From assembly GCA_029565675.1 (NCBI GenBank), contig JAKQNP010000008.1, positions 186,001-250,000 of the forward strand: DNA of 64,000 nt. Reading direction: 5' to 3'. Shown piece after piece: positions 41,687 through 53,308 of this stretch; the stretch's first letter is position 1, and every line of letters starts with the position of its first letter. A program made the translations under genes and the position numbers. The notes beneath the pieces were generated by a model. The model saw only the letters and a list, made by a program, of their open reading frames with translations. It was not told where the DNA came from and did no database searches. The stretch is from a bacterium (GTDB lineage Bacteria > Zhuqueibacterota > Zhuqueibacteria > Residuimicrobiales > Oceaniaggregativiventaceae).

Positions 41687-42694
41687 ATGAGCAGTCGTTG
41701 GCTGCAGATATTGGAGAAATTGCGCGCCCACCGCTGGCGCGGCGGGATTCTTCTTGGGCTGGGCCTCTATCTGGTGCTGATCAACCAGCTGATTCGGGTG
41801 CGACCGGATCACGTCTTTATTGCTCTTTTGTTGTTCGTCTTTGCCTTCAGCCGCGGCCGGCTCAAAACCTTTGCCGTCGATTGGACGCCATGGATCGTTT
41901 TCTGGATCTGTTACGATATGATGCGCGGAGTGGCCGATAACCTGCGCGGCGCCATCAATGTGATAGTTCCCTATGAAGTGGAACTGGCCATGTTCGGCAA
42001 GTTTTTCGGCGGCATAATCCCCTGTTACGTGATGCAGGATTGGCAACAGGTCATGGATGGGACATTTATCAAGGGATTGCTGGATGCCAGCGGCGGACTT
42101 TTCTATACCCTCCACTTCGGTATGCCGCTCCTGCTCGGCTGGGTACTCTGGCATACCACCAGCGACCGCAAGCTCTTTTATATCTTTGTCTGGAGCATGA
42201 CGCTGCTCAATTTTTCTGCATTGACGACGTTTATTCTCTATCCGGCCGCACCCCCATGGTATGTCTTTAGCTATGGGTTCGATCAACCGCCGCAGACCAT
42301 CCACTGGGGCCTCGGTGCCGGCGCGCTGATCAACGTCGACCGGATGATCGGGATGAATTTTTTCCAGACCCTCTGGGGAGGATTCAACCCCAACCATTTT
42401 GCCGCCATTCCTTCTTTGCACGGCTCCTATCCGGTCGCCATCGCTTTTTTTACCTGGAAAAAATTCCGCAAAGCAGCTTTTTGGCTGGCGCTCTATCCTT
42501 TGGGTGTGTGGTTTTCTGCCGTCTATCTCAACCAGCACTATATCATCGATTTGATCATCGGCGCTCTCTATTTTGCGGTCGCCTATTTGATATCCAGCCG
42601 TCTGCTTATTCCCCATGTTTTTTCCCGATTTGTGGATTGGGAGTTGCTGCGGCGACGTGAACAGGAAACCGAAATGGCTGAAACGATTAAATAG
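41687..42694 (+). CDS. Aur1/IPC synthase-like PAP2 membrane enzyme
   Basis: A 335-residue protein with six or so membrane helices. The PAP2 catalytic motifs are of the Aur1 (inositol phosphorylceramide synthase) subtype: AAPPWYVFSY, the motif PSLHGSYPV with its His, and NQHYIIDLIIG with the second His and Asp. The KxxxxxxRP motif of ordinary PAP2 is replaced by the Aur1 version. The family transfers head groups between lipids in the membrane. The start at 41687 is MSSRWLQIL. It is followed after about 70 bases by a tRNA gene with its own promoter. Substrate unknown. Confidence 0.82.
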   Translation: MSSRWLQILEKLRAHRWRGGILLGLGLYLVLINQLIRVRPDHVFIALLLFVFAFSRGRLKTFAVDWTPWIVFWICYDMMRGVADNLRGAINVIVPYEVELAMFGKFFGGIIPCYVMQDWQQVMDGTFIKGLLDASGGLFYTLHFGMPLLLGWVLWHTTSDRKLFYIFVWSMTLLNFSALTTFILYPAAPPWYVFSYGFDQPPQTIHWGLGAGALINVDRMIGMNFFQTLWGGFNPNHFAAIPSLHGSYPVAIAFFTWKKFRKAAFWLALYPLGVWFSAVYLNQHYIIDLIIGALYFAVAYLISSRLLIPHVFSRFVDWELLRRREQETEMAETIK

Positions 42695-45721: not shown

Positions 45722-45754
45722 GGGCTCGCCGGTTTGTCCGGGAGCCCTTTTTTG
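45722..45754 (+). terminator. intrinsic terminator/attenuator 25 bases before the RelA-like start
   Basis: GGGCTC pairs with GAGCCC and the inner CCGG pairs with CCGG around a TTTGT loop, with one bulged G; six Ts follow. It lies about 15 bases after the predicted transcription start. The nearest plus-strand gene upstream ends 1.5 kb away, with minus-strand genes between, so this hairpin can only stop a transcript that begins in the AT-rich region. That makes it an attenuator or the end of a short RNA. Confidence 0.75.
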
Positions 45755-45777: not shown

Positions 45778-48700
45778 ATGGAACTTCAACAGCGACTAAA
45801 TCGCTGGCTCGTGATGGTCAGCCAACAGCTGGAGCAGGCGCTGCCCAATCATCAGCGCACCTATTCCGAGGCGGTTAACTTGCCTCACTATCGCCATCTT
45901 TCCCTGCAGCTGTTGTTGCGCTTTCAAGATCTCACCTTGGCGCAGGCGGCTTTTTTGCATGGTGTGCCGAGCAGCGAAGTTTCTGCTCATCTGCAGTCGC
46001 TCGTGAACGCTGAAATCCTGCAGATCCTTGAAAACCGCGAGTTGCTCGCTTCTTTAAATGGTCTCGACAGCGATGTTGCCAATCAGTTGGTGATCAATGT
46101 GCTGCCGGCCCTGCGCGATTGGCGCTCTGTGCCGCTTTTTCTTTTTGACAAATTGCATCATCTCGATTCCGATGGCCATCTCTTCAATTGGACTTTGCGC
46201 TTCTACCAGTCGCCTGCCCTTTTCGATGTCGAGCTTTTTCAACCCATGCGCTATACCTGTTCGCTCACCGATCTGTTGCAGTTCAGCGCTTTCACCAGCT
46301 CGGTTTTGGTCAAAACAGCCGACTATTTTGGCCTCTGGCATGAACGCAACGTTCTGGAGAATGCGGCGTTGTTGCTGCACGATCAAGCGAGGTTCTGCAA
46401 CTTGGTCGATTCGGTGTTGGCCGAGGTCAAAGAGCCAAGCTACACCGGGCGGATTTGTGCGGCCATACAGAAAACCGTTGGCTCTCTCGGCCAGACAATG
46501 TGGGAATGGCGGCATATCGCAGCTATGGATCGCGAATTAAGCGCCGATGGACACCCGGGCGGACCTCGATCGGTTCCCAAACTCGGTTATGTTGCCGTGC
46601 TCTGCCGGGATGCTTCGGTTTGCTATCAAGTTCTGGGATTGTTACACCGCCGCTGCAAACATCGGCCGGCAAAATTAAACGATTTTATCGGTGAGCCTAC
46701 CAAGAGCGGCTATCGCGCTCTGCACACGGTGCTGCTCGCTCCAGATGATTTGCAGGATTGCACGGAGGTCATTCCTGTCCGTTTGATTCCGATCGATGAG
46801 AGCAACAATCGGTTCTTGAATTCGGATGATCAAAAGATAGCCAATATTCGCCACCATTTTAGCGGCGAAATGGATGCCGGCTTGCGGGTCTTTACGCCCG
46901 ATGGTCGAAGAGTCGATTTGCCGGTGGGCGCTACCGTGATGCATTTTGCCATGACTCTTCATTCTTCTTTTGTCGCTCATCTCAGCGGAGCAACGGTCAA
47001 TCGCCAGCCTGTTTCCGCTTTCCATCCGCTCGATTGGGGGGATGTGGTCTGGCTGGATATCGCCAAAACGCCGCAGCCGCTGCCGGCCGGCTGGCGGGAG
47101 CGGTTGCCCCAGCCTTTTCGCAAGCGGGTCATCCGTCAGTTCAAGCAATTCTATCGGCCGGCGCTGATGGCGGCTGGCCGCACCTGGCTGCGGCAGCAGC
47201 TGTTGGCACGCGGACTGCAGGAAATTCCGGAAGATGAAATCCTCGATCTCTTCGTCGAAGAGGTGGCGACAACCTGGCGTTCGCAAAACCGGCATCCACA
47301 CGTCGATTGCGGCAAGGAAGCGCATGATTGGTGGCTTCAGCAGCTCGGCATTCTCGCCAGCTGCAATCGCGGCATGGATTTGCCCTATGTGTCGGCCATC
47401 GACGAGATAAGCGCAGAAGAACTGGTCAGCGATATGCTGCGCACCATCGAAACCGCCAATCTGAATCTGATCCATGAATTGAATGTGCCGCTGCCGTTGC
47501 AGTCGCGTATCGACTCTATCGTATTATGCGATCAGTGCCATCCGCAAATTCCGGGCGATAATGTGGGCAAGTTGGAGAACCGCACCCTGCGGGTGCACCG
47601 CAAAAGCGCGCCTTGCGGAAAAGGTGGTTTTGCGGTTTTTCGCCAACATCGCGCGAGGCATCCACACTATTTCCTCATCGAGTTCACCAATCGCATCGGC
47701 GCTGCCGCTGAAATTTTCGAGGTTTTTAACCGTTTTCATATCGACATTGCGGATTTTGCCGGCTGTCGGCTGCAACGCGGATGGAGCGTAGTGCGGATTT
47801 TGGTGGATGTTATGGAAGAAAACCGTATCGATCAGGTTGCCGCCGCATTGGAAAAAATTCAGGGCGTGCGGCGGGTTATCAAGCCAAATCAGCCGGCTGT
47901 GCCTCTCCTCGAAAGCGTCTTGCCGCCGCGCGCAGCTGTCCAAAGCTCGGCGCTTTCGACGCCGGCGCCCTATATCTGCGGCAATTGTATCGTCGAGGAT
48001 GCATACTTTTATGGTATGGAAAGGGAGCTGGCGCAGCTGCGCGATATCTTTAACCGGGTCAATCTCCAAGGCGGCTATAAGGGGTGCTCGGTATTTGTCT
48101 ATGGGCCCAAGCGCAGCGGCAAAAGTTCGCTGGTGCTCTATTTTTATCGCGAAATCCAACGCTTGCATTCGCAAAAGTGTCTGCTGGTATACTATGAAGC
48201 CTCCCGTCGGCAATCGTGGAAAGGCGCAGAAAAAGAGCTGAATCGGCAGATTTGCGAACACGCTGTGCAGATGGCGCCGTTTTTCAATATTGAATTGCCG
48301 CCGCTGAGTGATCTCTCTTTGGTGGAAAACATGGAGATTCTGCAGCGGGTTTTGCATATCCCGTTTGTCTTGATCATCGACGAAGCCATCGGATTGCTGC
48401 ACGAAACCACCGCTGCAGAAGAGATGGAATCCTTGCTCGATTTTTTTGACTGCGTTGCCAAGCTGCCGCAGCGGATGGTCATTTGGGTGGGGCCGGAAGC
48501 GCCGGTACAATTTTTACACCCCAAGGTCCGCCGCAAGCTGGAAAAAGCGGAACCGGTCAAGACGCGCAATTTCGAACTGCAGGAGACCTTTGCCTTGTTG
48601 CGGGCGGACAAATTCAACTATCGCCATCACATAAAGATTTCCCATTCACTGGCACGTCAGATCCATCTTTTGACCGGCGGGCATCCTTATTGGATTTCCT

Positions 48701-49116
48701 ATCTCGGACGTTTGATGTGGCAATCCGCCCGCCAGGGTGAAATCACCCGATATACGCCGCAGCTGCTGAGCAGAGCCGTGGAAGACATGCTCAATTTGGG
48801 GGCTCCGTTTACCGATCGCCTCTATTCAACACTCGATCCCAGCCAATCTTATCACCTGATTCTCAAGCTGCTTGCCCAAAAAGACGTGCCGGAAGAAGGG
48901 CTGACGTTGACAGATCTGCGGAGCCAACTGAACAAAACCAATTCTGATTTGGCTGAAAAATCGCTGCGCAATGTTTTGAATATTCTGCAAGCCCAGGGAG
49001 CTCTGCACTGCCATTATCACCGACGGCACACGACCTGGAGTCTCGCAGCGCCGCTCCTGGGTATGGCCATTCAATATCATCAGGAGCCAAACTCGATCAC
49101 AGGAGAAAAGTTATGA
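45778..49116 (+). CDS. pseudo-RelA/SpoT protein fused to a STAND-like ATPase
   Basis: A 1112-residue protein of unusual design. Residues 45-135 match an RSH HD hydrolase, but the HD box reads HG (His61-Gly62) and the ED pair is missing; FDKLHH (124) matches the later DRLHN. Residues 170-345 match the synthetase, with CYQVLGLLH and GYRALHTVLL but no RxKHxxSI motif and EVQIRT reduced to IPVRLI. TGS spans 369-426, the zinc finger (CDQCHPQIPGDNVG) about 582-615 and ACT about 628-701. Residues 743-1110 are a P-loop ATPase: Walker A GPKRSGKSS (776-784), Walker B LIIDEA (Asp868), a TGGHP motif (about 966) and a winged C-terminus. Start is ATG 45778 after GGAGG. Probably a ribosome or alarmone sensor controlling an ATPase; function is inferred. 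Confidence 0.8.
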   Translation: MELQQRLNRWLVMVSQQLEQALPNHQRTYSEAVNLPHYRHLSLQLLLRFQDLTLAQAAFLHGVPSSEVSAHLQSLVNAEILQILENRELLASLNGLDSDVANQLVINVLPALRDWRSVPLFLFDKLHHLDSDGHLFNWTLRFYQSPALFDVELFQPMRYTCSLTDLLQFSAFTSSVLVKTADYFGLWHERNVLENAALLLHDQARFCNLVDSVLAEVKEPSYTGRICAAIQKTVGSLGQTMWEWRHIAAMDRELSADGHPGGPRSVPKLGYVAVLCRDASVCYQVLGLLHRRCKHRPAKLNDFIGEPTKSGYRALHTVLLAPDDLQDCTEVIPVRLIPIDESNNRFLNSDDQKIANIRHHFSGEMDAGLRVFTPDGRRVDLPVGATVMHFAMTLHSSFVAHLSGATVNRQPVSAFHPLDWGDVVWLDIAKTPQPLPAGWRERLPQPFRKRVIRQFKQFYRPALMAAGRTWLRQQLLARGLQEIPEDEILDLFVEEVATTWRSQNRHPHVDCGKEAHDWWLQQLGILASCNRGMDLPYVSAIDEISAEELVSDMLRTIETANLNLIHELNVPLPLQSRIDSIVLCDQCHPQIPGDNVGKLENRTLRVHRKSAPCGKGGFAVFRQHRARHPHYFLIEFTNRIGAAAEIFEVFNRFHIDIADFAGCRLQRGWSVVRILVDVMEENRIDQVAAALEKIQGVRRVIKPNQPAVPLLESVLPPRAAVQSSALSTPAPYICGNCIVEDAYFYGMERELAQLRDIFNRVNLQGGYKGCSVFVYGPKRSGKSSLVLYFYREIQRLHSQKCLLVYYEASRRQSWKGAEKELNRQICEHAVQMAPFFNIELPPLSDLSLVENMEILQRVLHIPFVLIIDEAIGLLHETTAAEEMESLLDFFDCVAKLPQRMVIWVGPEAPVQFLHPKVRRKLEKAEPVKTRNFELQETFALLRADKFNYRHHIKISHSLARQIHLLTGGHPYWISYLGRLMWQSARQGEITRYTPQLLSRAVEDMLNLGAPFTDRLYSTLDPSQSYHLILKLLAQKDVPEEGLTLTDLRSQLNKTNSDLAEKSLRNVLNILQAQGALHCHYHRRHTTWSLAAPLLGMAIQYHQEPNSITGEKL

Positions 49117-50447
49117 AGGATGACTCATCCCTCTTTTTTATTTATGAACAACAATTGGAACAATTGGCACAGGCTCAGCAGATGACCTATCTCTATGGCG
49201 GGCGCGGAGTGGGAAAGAGCACTTTTTTGCGCAGATTGGCGCAACGGCTGGGCCCCCAAGATGTGATCTGGATCGAGGGCGATGACTGGTTTGCCGCTCG
49301 CCAACGCCTTGCGGAAATCGATCCTGGCGACCTGAAATTATCCAAACATTTGATCATCGATGATCTGGATCGATTTTGTGCGGTGGGCTATGATCGCGAA
49401 GGAGATAAATTTGAGGAAATGATCAATCGTCTGGATGAATTGTTCAAACGCTTGACAGCCCCGGACCGGCAAAAACGGGTCTATGCGGCAGGAACCCGGA
49501 AACCGCAGTTTTTTATCAATGGCCGAGACCGAAAGCCTGAATCCGCGCAGCGCTCGCCCTGGTGGCAACTGTTTTGGTCGTATATCGATATGAGTTGGAA
49601 TCATGTGCTTTTCAATCCCTGGGAGTTGGGCTGGAAACAGAACCTGTCTGACTGGATCGAGAAACGCTTTGCTGTTGCCGTGCAAGAACCGGTCTGGCGG
49701 TTATGGGCTAAGCTGACCATATCTTTGACTGGCGGGCACCCATCGTTGATCAAGGCGGCGTTGGCGGGACTCGAGCACTTGGCCAGGGGGGAGGAATTGA
49801 CGCCGGTTGAGAAAAAATTGCGCTCTCCGTTCGATGTCAACGAAAGCGACGAGCGATGGCTGCAAACACGTCACTATCTGGAAGACTGCCTGGTGCAAAC
49901 CGGCCTGAATCGATTGCGCCGCGCCCTGCAGAGCTTGTGGACCATTTCCCAGTCAAGTCGTCCGGAGGTGGCCGGTTTTCTCACCCGCCTCGCGCAGGAT
50001 GAACCGATCATTCCGCCCTATGATGTGCGGGAGATTCTCATCGATCACTCGGTAATCTATCTCGATGCTGAAAGCGGCAGCTATCAAATTCCAGGAGATC
50101 TGCTCAAAAACGAAATTTTGCATTTATTTCCACCATCGGAAGACAAAGCGCAGATCACGGTCCAACCCGATACCGCCGCACCCCAGCGTCGCGGCACCAT
50201 GGTATTGCAAGTCGGGCAAACACCCATGCCGATCCGCCTCAACGGCAGCACCTGGCGTTTGCTCTCTCTGCTGCACCAGCAAGGCGGCCAGGTTGTTTCT
50301 CTGGATACGCTGCAAAAAAAGCTGAACAAAACAGAATATGGTGTGCGCTCGGCCTTGCAGCGCCTGGAGAATAAGCTCAAAGAAGTCGGTGCAGATCATC
50401 TGTTGGAAAATCAAAGAGGTAAAGGTTATCGATTCAGATCGGAGTGA
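49113..50447 (+). CDS. P-loop ATPase with C-terminal OmpR-type winged helix
   Basis: A 444-residue protein starting inside the stop of the previous gene (ATGA). Residues 20-340 form a P-loop ATPase with Walker A GGRGVGKST (29-37), Walker B LIIDDLDRF (Asp83/Asp84) and a TGGHP motif (206-210) like that of its partner. Residues about 365-444 form a winged helix of the OmpR/Trans_reg_C type (LNGSTWRLLSLLHQQGG, VRSALQRLENKL, RGKGYRFRS) that should bind DNA. The order, ATPase then DNA-binding domain, resembles STAND-type regulators. It probably acts with the RelA-like ATPase and may control the operon itself. Confidence 0.82.
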   Translation: MKDDSSLFFIYEQQLEQLAQAQQMTYLYGGRGVGKSTFLRRLAQRLGPQDVIWIEGDDWFAARQRLAEIDPGDLKLSKHLIIDDLDRFCAVGYDREGDKFEEMINRLDELFKRLTAPDRQKRVYAAGTRKPQFFINGRDRKPESAQRSPWWQLFWSYIDMSWNHVLFNPWELGWKQNLSDWIEKRFAVAVQEPVWRLWAKLTISLTGGHPSLIKAALAGLEHLARGEELTPVEKKLRSPFDVNESDERWLQTRHYLEDCLVQTGLNRLRRALQSLWTISQSSRPEVAGFLTRLAQDEPIIPPYDVREILIDHSVIYLDAESGSYQIPGDLLKNEILHLFPPSEDKAQITVQPDTAAPQRRGTMVLQVGQTPMPIRLNGSTWRLLSLLHQQGGQVVSLDTLQKKLNKTEYGVRSALQRLENKLKEVGADHLLENQRGKGYRFRSE

Positions 50448-50536: not shown

Positions 50537-50824
50537 TTATATGTTTGCCGCAGTTTTTCCGTTCTTCAATTTTTCAAGCCAGTTTGAATAGGTTATTAAT
50601 ATTGCGAAAGTTGAATATATAACGCCGGCAATGATATCGACGACATAATGGTCGCCTGAATATATAACGGTCAAGGAGACGCTCAAGGCATAGAAATAGC
50701 TGATTTTGCTGTCAAACGCATCGACAATGATAACGGCTATAGAATGTCTCTGACCACTGATTTGGCTCCGCGTGCTCTCGGCTATCGATCTGTGGACAGA
50801 TTTCACACCAGGATTTACCGTCAA
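50537..50824 (-). pseudogene. C-terminal remnant of a PAP2 phosphatase
   Basis: The frame covers only the end of a PAP2 enzyme. YSGDHYVVDIIAG is the third catalytic motif (His and Asp), and RHSIAVIIV corresponds to the region around the second motif, whose PSL is gone. The KxxxxxxRP part and first helices are missing, and the upstream residues look like unrelated sequence. The region is AT-rich. It appears to be a decayed gene left next to the RelA-like operon. Confidence 0.6.
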
Positions 50825-50944: not shown

Positions 50945-53308
50945 ATGATTGGTTTTACTCTTCGCAACTCTTTCCGCCCTGTCGCTCGTCCGATCAGTGC
51001 CAGCCGTTTACAGAGATCCATGCGGATCAGCATTATTGCCGGCTCCATCGGCATTCCATGGGTCTTGACTTTTTTACCCGGATATATACTCAATGTTTTT
51101 TTCAAGAATCACCTCGGCGGCACCGCTTTTCAGCTGGGATTGATGGTGGCTTTGATATATATTTCCAATCTTTTACATCTGGGCGCGATTACCATCTATG
51201 GCCGGCTTAAGAGCATCAAGTTATACTGGTGGGTGATGCACATCTTGCACCGCTTCATCGGATTGTTGTTGGCTTATGTTTGTGTGATGGTGGTACGGGG
51301 CGGGGACCCGGGGATGGGTATTGTGCTGACGGTTTTGGCGGTAACGGTGAGTTCTTTTTTCAGCAACGCGAGTGCCGCAGGTTGGTCGGCATGGATGGCT
51401 GATCTGGTGCCGGGGCAGATTCGCGCCACCTTTTTTACCCGTCGCTCAGCGATCCTCAACGCTGTCAGCATGGCATGGTTTTTTGTCGTCACTCTGGCGC
51501 TGGATCTCTTTGTGCAGCACGAGATGTCGGTTTTCGCAGTGGTTTTTACACTTGCGGCAATCGGCGGAGTGGTGGATATCTTTATGCATATTTGGATCCC
51601 GGAGCAAGAGGCAGCTCAGGCAAAGGATCCACCAGGATGGCGGCTTTACACGGATCCGCTGAAAAACGGCAATTTCCGGCGCTTTTCGCTTGCCTATACC
51701 CTATACATGCTCTCAACCAATATATTGGCGCCTTTCTTGGGACCGTACCTGACCGCCCAGGATGGCATCGGTGCGCCGAATATCTGGCTTGGAATCCTGG
51801 TTATGAACACGCAATTGGTAACCATCGCCACGATTCGATACTGGGGCGTGGTAATGGATCGGTTTGGCCGCAAACCAGTTGCCCTGATTGGCAGCCTCTC
51901 TTTCCTGGCCGGCCTCGGGTGGTTTTTTATCACCCCACAAAACTATGTCATTATCGTGCCGCTGATCGCCTTGTTGACTGGGAGCCTCAATCCGGCGTTT
52001 GTCGAGGGCATCAATCAAATGATGTTGTCGATTACTCCGGAAAAAAATAAAACTTCATATGTCGGCTGGTTTCTGACCATCGTCGGCGTGGGCAATGCCG
52101 TCGGCGCCCTGGGCGGCGGTTATTTGTATGATCTTTTCGCGGAGTGGCATTACGAACTCTGGAAAGGATTTTTTATCGGCGGGTTTCATCTGGTGGCGCT
52201 GACCAACATCGTGCTTTGTGCGCTGAGTTTTCTGCTGTTGTTGCGCATTCGCGAAGGTGGTGAAAAAACGATGGGCTTTGTCTTTTCGCGCTTGGCCACA
52301 CCGGGGATTTTGCGCACTTTTTCCAACATGGGCATCATCGCCAAACCGCGCAGTTCAGGCCGGGTTGCACAGGCGCTGCGCGAAATCGATGGTTTATCGA
52401 GCAGCCTGGCCATCAGTGACGTCTTGCGTCGGTTGGATGATCCAGACGCTGAGGTTCGCGAAGAGGCAGCGCTGGCGTTGGGTCGTGCACGTGCAGAAGA
52501 GGCGGTTGATGCGTTGATCGAGCGCCTTCGAGATCCCGAGTCGACCATCCGGATCGTGGCGGCGAAAGCCCTGGGCCAGATCGGCAATCCGCGAGCGCTG
52601 CCCTATCTGATCGAGGGATTGGAAAGTCCATCCGATGAAGTGCAGCAGGCATGCGCTCAAGCGATCGGCAAGATCGGCGGCGAGGAGTCGTTGGCACAGC
52701 TGTTTCGCTTGATGCGGGAAGGGCGCAGCGAAAAGGTCAGCGCCTTGAGCGCCGATGCCTTGTCGCGGCGCGGTATACTCGAGGCGGCCTGGGAAATTTT
52801 GCCCTTTATGCATCAAACCAAAAATCCGGTTTTGCGGCGACAACTCGCTATTGCTATGGGCAATTTGCTCGGCGAGCCCGGAGAATTTTATAAATACTAT
52901 ACCAGTTTGGACGTCGTGCAGGGGAATCGTTTCGATCGGCTCTATCATGAAGCGCAACACACCCTGCTGCAATATGAGAAGAACGGTATCAGGCAATCTT
53001 CTGCTGACTCCCTGACCAGGACGTTGCCGTCCGTGCGTGGGCTGATCGAGAGGAATGAATATCGGCAGGCGCTGGTGGCTTTGGCTGATATCCTGCACGG
53101 TCTGGTAAGGATTCGTCTGCAGCAGGATATCGAGGATGAAGAGGCTCTTCTCTATTATACCGTCTATCGCGATGCCCGGCTTGGACTGGGTTACTGGGCG
53201 GTGCGGGAAATGGTCGCCCTGACGGAAGAGAATCCTTCTGATGAACTTTTGCGCATCGACATTCTGCTGATCCTCTATTTTCTCGCTAATTGCAGCAAAA
53301 ACGGTTAA
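50945..53308 (+). CDS. MFS transporter fused to HEAT repeats
   Basis: A 787-residue protein. The first about 450 residues form an MFS carrier with 12 helices; GRKPVALIGSLSFLAG is the A-loop-type motif between helices. The rest is soluble. From about residue 475 to 610 there are four to five HEAT-type repeats of about 31 residues (for example RRLDDPDAEVREEAALALG and ERLRDPESTIRIVAAKALG). A further helical region follows to the end. The fusion suggests that the cytoplasmic repeats regulate the carrier or dock it to a partner. Substrate unknown. Confidence 0.87.
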   Translation: MIGFTLRNSFRPVARPISASRLQRSMRISIIAGSIGIPWVLTFLPGYILNVFFKNHLGGTAFQLGLMVALIYISNLLHLGAITIYGRLKSIKLYWWVMHILHRFIGLLLAYVCVMVVRGGDPGMGIVLTVLAVTVSSFFSNASAAGWSAWMADLVPGQIRATFFTRRSAILNAVSMAWFFVVTLALDLFVQHEMSVFAVVFTLAAIGGVVDIFMHIWIPEQEAAQAKDPPGWRLYTDPLKNGNFRRFSLAYTLYMLSTNILAPFLGPYLTAQDGIGAPNIWLGILVMNTQLVTIATIRYWGVVMDRFGRKPVALIGSLSFLAGLGWFFITPQNYVIIVPLIALLTGSLNPAFVEGINQMMLSITPEKNKTSYVGWFLTIVGVGNAVGALGGGYLYDLFAEWHYELWKGFFIGGFHLVALTNIVLCALSFLLLLRIREGGEKTMGFVFSRLATPGILRTFSNMGIIAKPRSSGRVAQALREIDGLSSSLAISDVLRRLDDPDAEVREEAALALGRARAEEAVDALIERLRDPESTIRIVAAKALGQIGNPRALPYLIEGLESPSDEVQQACAQAIGKIGGEESLAQLFRLMREGRSEKVSALSADALSRRGILEAAWEILPFMHQTKNPVLRRQLAIAMGNLLGEPGEFYKYYTSLDVVQGNRFDRLYHEAQHTLLQYEKNGIRQSSADSLTRTLPSVRGLIERNEYRQALVALADILHGLVRIRLQQDIEDEEALLYYTVYRDARLGLGYWAVREMVALTEENPSDELLRIDILLILYFLANCSKNG

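Follow-up and report, generated by a model that had tools for sequence, protein, structure and literature searches.

A predicted double-inactive RelA/SpoT homologue fused to a P-loop ATPase and overlapping a putative DNA-binding ATPase partner in one KSB1 genus

The window analysed here, 64,000 nucleotides of an uncultured KSB1 bacterium, carries at 45778..49116 (+) a gene for a pseudo-RSH/ATPase fusion protein of 1112 aa, delimited from its open reading frame, Pfam matches and alignment with Rel proteins. The gene is one intact frame of 1112 codons, from an ATG at 45778 to a TGA at 49114-49116, with a GGAGG ribosome-binding site 4-8 bases 5' of the start. The first ~720 residues track a long RelA/SpoT homologue (RSH) end to end, and the last ~370 form an AAA_16-type P-loop ATPase. 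A second P-loop ATPase gene, at 49113..50447 (+), starts inside the stop codon of the first (ATGA overlap), and this overlap is kept in a second genome of the same genus. Directly before the ribosome-binding site, a terminator-like hairpin followed by T6 lies at 45722..45753 (+; fold z -1.5), between the promoter region and the fusion start, where no gene ends. It was rejected as a conserved leader or attenuator, since none was seen 5' of the orthologue in the second genome. The only match of an Rfam search was a tRNA.

The second KSB1 genome encodes an orthologue of 63-66% identity, and the fusion was found in 2 of 82 genomes of the phylum, both of this one genus. Its sole relative in 84,980 species genomes came from 'candidate division KSB1 bacterium isolate Zod_Metabat.28', which is this second genome and the only other member of the genus among those compared, and no homologue was found in plasmid, phage or viral collections; because these scans used short peptides, distant fusions outside KSB1 could escape them. 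In Zod_Metabat.28 a contig end cuts the gene between the TGS domain and the helical region, but a single contig carries the zinc finger, the ACT domain and the ATPase, with the ACT-ATPase junction. Between the two genomes pN/pS is 0.32 over the whole gene with synonymous sites near saturation, so the gene is under purifying selection. Misassembly, chance and decay as sources of the fusion are ruled out by the independent genome, the intact junction and this ratio. In a tree the fusion pair forms a single clade whose branch is very long, compatible with either duplication of a Rel or transfer.

Profile searches and alignments establish, at the level of sequence, that the N-terminal part descends from a long RSH. 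Three Pfam models exceeded their cut-offs, TGS (E 2.6e-14), RelA_SpoT (1.4e-6) and AAA_16 (3.8e-10), while ACT stayed below its own (2e-4). The NCBIfam model TIGR00691 spoT_relA scored 74 bits (E 7e-21) without reaching its curated cut-off of 499, and phmmer against the PDB returned E. coli RelA at 7.8e-13. Single-domain hhalign comparisons with two-sequence profiles were clear only for the synthetase (SYNTH) and TGS domains, and for ACT by local score; they were superseded by a position-specific alignment, domain by domain, against a profile of 36 canonical Rels with column-shuffled controls. This gave z scores of 22 for the SYNTH core (residues 263-345) and 24 for TGS, and of 4.5 and 4.3 for the zinc finger and ACT. 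The HD-like part alone was weak (z 3.2, with 1 of 100 shuffles equally good), and the helical region was indistinguishable from the shuffled controls (z 0.2). In the joint alignment, only short gaps interrupt the match of the HD-like part to Rel between the first conserved histidine and DKLHHLD.

The fusion has the colinear order of long RSHs, HD-SYNTH-TGS-helical-zinc finger (ZFD)-ACT, with the helical element placed by position. The HD-like pseudo-hydrolase comprises residues 1-165 (45778..46272, +), followed by a connector and synthetase-like domain (166-345; 46273..46812, +), the TGS domain (366-430; 46873..47067, +), a region of predicted helices where long RSHs have their helical domain (440-575; 47095..47502, +), a zinc-finger/RIS-like domain with C584, C587, R602, H607 and C613 (576-625; 47503..47652, +), and an ACT/RRM domain (626-705; 47653..47892, +). 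The original prediction that the RSH domains can be recognised in order thus held for SYNTH, TGS and ACT, moderately for the zinc finger, and for HD only at the z score given above.

Structure prediction was of more limited use. An AlphaFold model of the whole fusion with two close relatives had a pLDDT of 34 and was set aside. That of residues 1-720 was modest (pLDDT 57.5, pTM 0.34) and partly circular, its alignment having included four Rels from viral contigs; it shows helices in the HD part and then Rel-like folds. The best Foldseek matches of this model were to ribosome-bound E. coli RelA (E 1.7e-23, obtained with the Rels in the alignment), and solved domains were matched at a TM score of 0.93 for TGS (3hvz) and 0.86 for ACT (3ibw). 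We consider the model helpful for these two domains. A PDB profile search with Rels in the profile was circular and was likewise set aside, and a profile of the ATPase part found no match in the PDB.

The residue numbers used for HD and SYNTH follow the Streptococcus Rel convention, and those for TGS and the zinc finger are from E. coli RelA. Alignment with canonical Rels shows that both sets of active-site residues have been lost. On the hydrolase side (H53, H77-D78, E81-D82, D144, N148), D78 is replaced by G (G62 of the fusion), E81 by S (S65), D82 by S/G (S66) and N148 by H, so that the HD box reads HG and the ED pair is gone; H53, H77 and D144, three of four metal-ligand positions, persist as H37, H61 and D124. 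On the synthetase side (R241, K243, S247, D264, E323), the RxKxxxS block (GRxKxxYSI) and E323 are lost, D264 is K, R269 is A, and EIQIRT of the Rels reads VIPVR. In both genomes an acidic residue, E/D330, lies one place from the E323 position. Y312 and H316 of the fusion preserve the positions of Y308 and H312, and the SYNTH-TGS link has been shortened. D78, E81, D82, RxKxxxS, D264, R269 and E323 do not vary among the canonical Rels of the phylum (up to 36 compared, and all 36 for R241, K243, S247, D264 and E323), and their replacements are the same or nearly so in both fusions. The two catalytic centres are altered as had been predicted, and the protein would be expected neither to synthesise nor to hydrolyse (p)ppGpp.

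The ribosome-facing side presents another picture. In E. coli RelA, H432 intercalates between C74 and C75 of the A/R tRNA and P411 contacts A76 (PMC4974054), and H432E abolishes activation by deacyl-tRNA (PMC7058999). In both genomes H395 and P374 of the fusion occupy these two positions, and C613, R629 and H634 of the RelA zinc finger have counterparts. The first cysteine of the CC pair, C612, is Q/R in the fusion, with C584 three residues before C587, and the K412 position is D. Identity between the two fusions is 75% in TGS, 78% in ZFD and 71% in ACT, followed by 61% in HD, 55% in SYNTH and 54% in the helical region, i.e., 74% for TGS, ZFD and ACT taken together vs 59% for the rest of the RSH part (Fisher p 1.5e-4). 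SYNTH is thus among the least conserved parts of the fusion; in the canonical Rel that both genomes also encode it is the most conserved, at 92%. This pattern indicates that catalytic constraint is relaxed in the fusion and that its tRNA/ribosome side remains constrained. Together with the H432 and zinc-site residues it lends stronger support to the earlier proposal that the RSH sensing parts are kept, and the fusion may bind ribosomes or tRNA.

The C-terminal ATPase (residues 741-1112; 47998..49113, +) contains a conserved Walker A (GPKRSGKS, 48103-48126, +), a conserved Walker B (VLIIDEA, 48367-48387, +), a TGGHP motif that reads T(G/A)GHP across the two genomes (48673-48687, +) and, after it, a probable winged helix (48850-49083, +). 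The ~370 additional residues are therefore a P-loop ATPase with TGGHP, as anticipated, and its motifs are present in both genomes. Read from sequence, the layout of both fusions is that of STAND ATPases, i.e., Walker A, Walker B, a GxP-like motif, to which we presume TGGHP to correspond, and a winged helix. AAA_16 is the sole ATPase model over its Pfam cut-off, with ATPase_2 and AAA_35 below, and no NACHT, NB-ARC or nSTAND model matched the fusion, so that nothing specific to STAND proteins was detected. The fusion may undergo ATP-driven switching.

The overlapping gene, recognised from its frame, Pfam and motifs and overlooked in the original prediction, encodes Walker A, Walker B and TGGHP in the same order as the fusion, followed by a C-terminal OmpR/PhoB-type DNA-binding domain (50229..50435, +). 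This domain is intact in both genomes, and the Pfam model Trans_reg_C matched it at 9.3e-7 here and 8.7e-9 in the second genome, both over the cut-off. The gene is present in 2 of the 82 genomes, exactly those with the fusion. The two products may act as partners, and an overlapping gene with an OmpR-type domain, which may bind DNA, would make transcription the likely output.

Each component of this pair has known relatives. The fusion resembles the long RSHs (Rel, RelA[hS] and SpoT[Hs]) in domain order and in the H432, P411 and zinc-site residues other than C612, but has an insertion of ~40 residues after the HD part and a shortened SYNTH-TGS link. Long RSHs were described in a 2011 survey as a hub for interaction with the ribosome that evolves conservatively and retains a six-domain structure; the survey also records the loss of HD activity in RelA and the ongoing loss of SYNTH in some SpoTs (PMC3153485). 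Unlike RelA and SpoT, the fusion has lost both centres in one protein and has gained a fused ATPase. This ATPase is similar to STAND-like proteins of the AAA_16/ATPase_2/AAA_35 type in Walker A, Walker B, TGGHP and the probable C-terminal winged helix, but in place of a repeat sensor it has an RSH module at its N terminus. The partner shares the C-terminal winged helix of OmpR/PhoB-type regulators but has a P-loop ATPase in front and no receiver domain. In the open-licence papers searched, no description came up of a long RSH with both centres dead and an ATPase fused to it, in agreement with the earlier view that no described family with this order is known.

Both fusion-bearing genomes also carry an intact Rel; that of the window genome is a full-length frame of 755 codons on contig C18. 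A third RSH of this genome, on contig C34 (L050:3549-6224, -), is an 892-codon frame with RelA_SpoT, TPR, SLOG (LSDAT_prok) and RyR domains and resembles a small alarmone synthetase coupled to a domain that senses nucleotides. Several KSB1 genomes contain frames of 850-900 codons that match RelA_SpoT. With a full Rel and a third RSH, ppGpp is already provided for in the window genome, and the fusion thus comes in addition to them.

A starvation sensor with a different output is the most economical reading of these data. We tentatively propose, as a mechanism that is possible but falls short of being probable, that a ribosome- and tRNA-sensing pseudo-RSH signals through ATPases to transcription in place of ppGpp. 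The inherited TGS, zinc finger and ACT domains would detect ribosomes whose A site holds an uncharged tRNA, and this starved state would be passed to the C-terminal ATPase, perhaps via the dead HD and SYNTH domains as moving parts. The fusion ATPase would then act jointly with the partner ATPase, whose OmpR-type domain would bind DNA and alter transcription. Slightly more speculative is the broader notion of a stringent-type sensor uncoupled from alarmones, in which ATPases relay the uncharged-tRNA state to a DNA-binding protein beside ordinary Rel and ppGpp. Against the mechanism stand the helical domain, whose RelA counterpart touches the acceptor arm of the tRNA and which is not recognisable here, and the exchanges of K412 to D and of the first CC cysteine to Q/R. 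Moreover, only two orthologues were found, and in their two genomes the neighbours (an inositol monophosphatase, an MFS-HEAT protein, a GDSL esterase and a methyltransferase), whose synteny is conserved in the genus, suggest no regulon. If true, the proposal would mean that the starvation sensor is separable from ppGpp chemistry; it allows one to test whether a cell can report the state of its ribosomes without an alarmone, and why RSH catalytic domains persist structurally once activity is lost.

Competition with Rel is the main rival. Here the fusion would be a regulatory pseudoenzyme that tunes ppGpp by competing with canonical Rel for the same starved ribosomes or by forming mixed oligomers with it, its ATPase controlling its own availability. 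The intact Rel in both genomes, the retained ribosome-facing residues, which would make the fusion a competitor, and the dimerisation of isolated RSH TGS and ACT domains (PMC4974054) speak for such a role; we nevertheless regard it as unlikely, since it leaves the fused ATPase and the DNA-binding partner unexplained. Somewhat less likely still is a nucleotide sensor, in which the HD or SYNTH pocket, catalytically dead, binds (p)ppGpp or GTP without converting them and thereby controls the ATPase. It would account for the H, H and D kept at the HD metal site and for the kept Y308 and H312 positions of SYNTH, but not for the low conservation of the SYNTH-like domain or the missing ligands D264, R269 and RxKxxxS.

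The original prediction had also raised phage defence. A STAND-type conflict protein whose RSH-derived trigger senses phage-induced translation arrest would suit a P-loop ATPase with TGGHP and a narrow distribution, but this idea fared poorly and is improbable: the best PADLOC match to the fusion had an E value of 0.0016 over 33 residues, no defence genes lie alongside, no relative of the fusion was found in the phage and plasmid collections, and both genomes share the same neighbourhood, unlike the mobility of an island. What stood of that interpretation is a doubly dead RSH with sensing parts and an ATPase. Most doubtful of all is a residual synthetase of altered chemistry, with E/D330 standing in for E323; the acidic residue lies one position away in both genomes, but K replaces D264, there is no RxKxxxS block and the SYNTH-TGS segment is shortened, which makes this highly improbable.

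Downstream of the pair, the 787-aa MFS transporter fused to HEAT repeats (50945-53308) has relatives of 47-57% identity in three other genomes of the order. It was rejected as part of the system, as it occurs in these genomes without the fusion-partner pair. A PAP2-superfamily frame of 95 aa at 50537-50824 (-) holds only the end of the domain and is probably a remnant; a full PAP2_3 protein is encoded at 41687-42694. Two further RSH-like frames were noted in other genomes. One, of 637 codons (L052:198-2108, genome G003, contig C118), has a weak RelA_SpoT match of 41.5 bits and adjoins a large helicase-like frame. The other (L054:4777-6918, genome G050, contig C290) is a long RSH of 714 codons that has an HD region without an evident HDxxED and ends after TGS.
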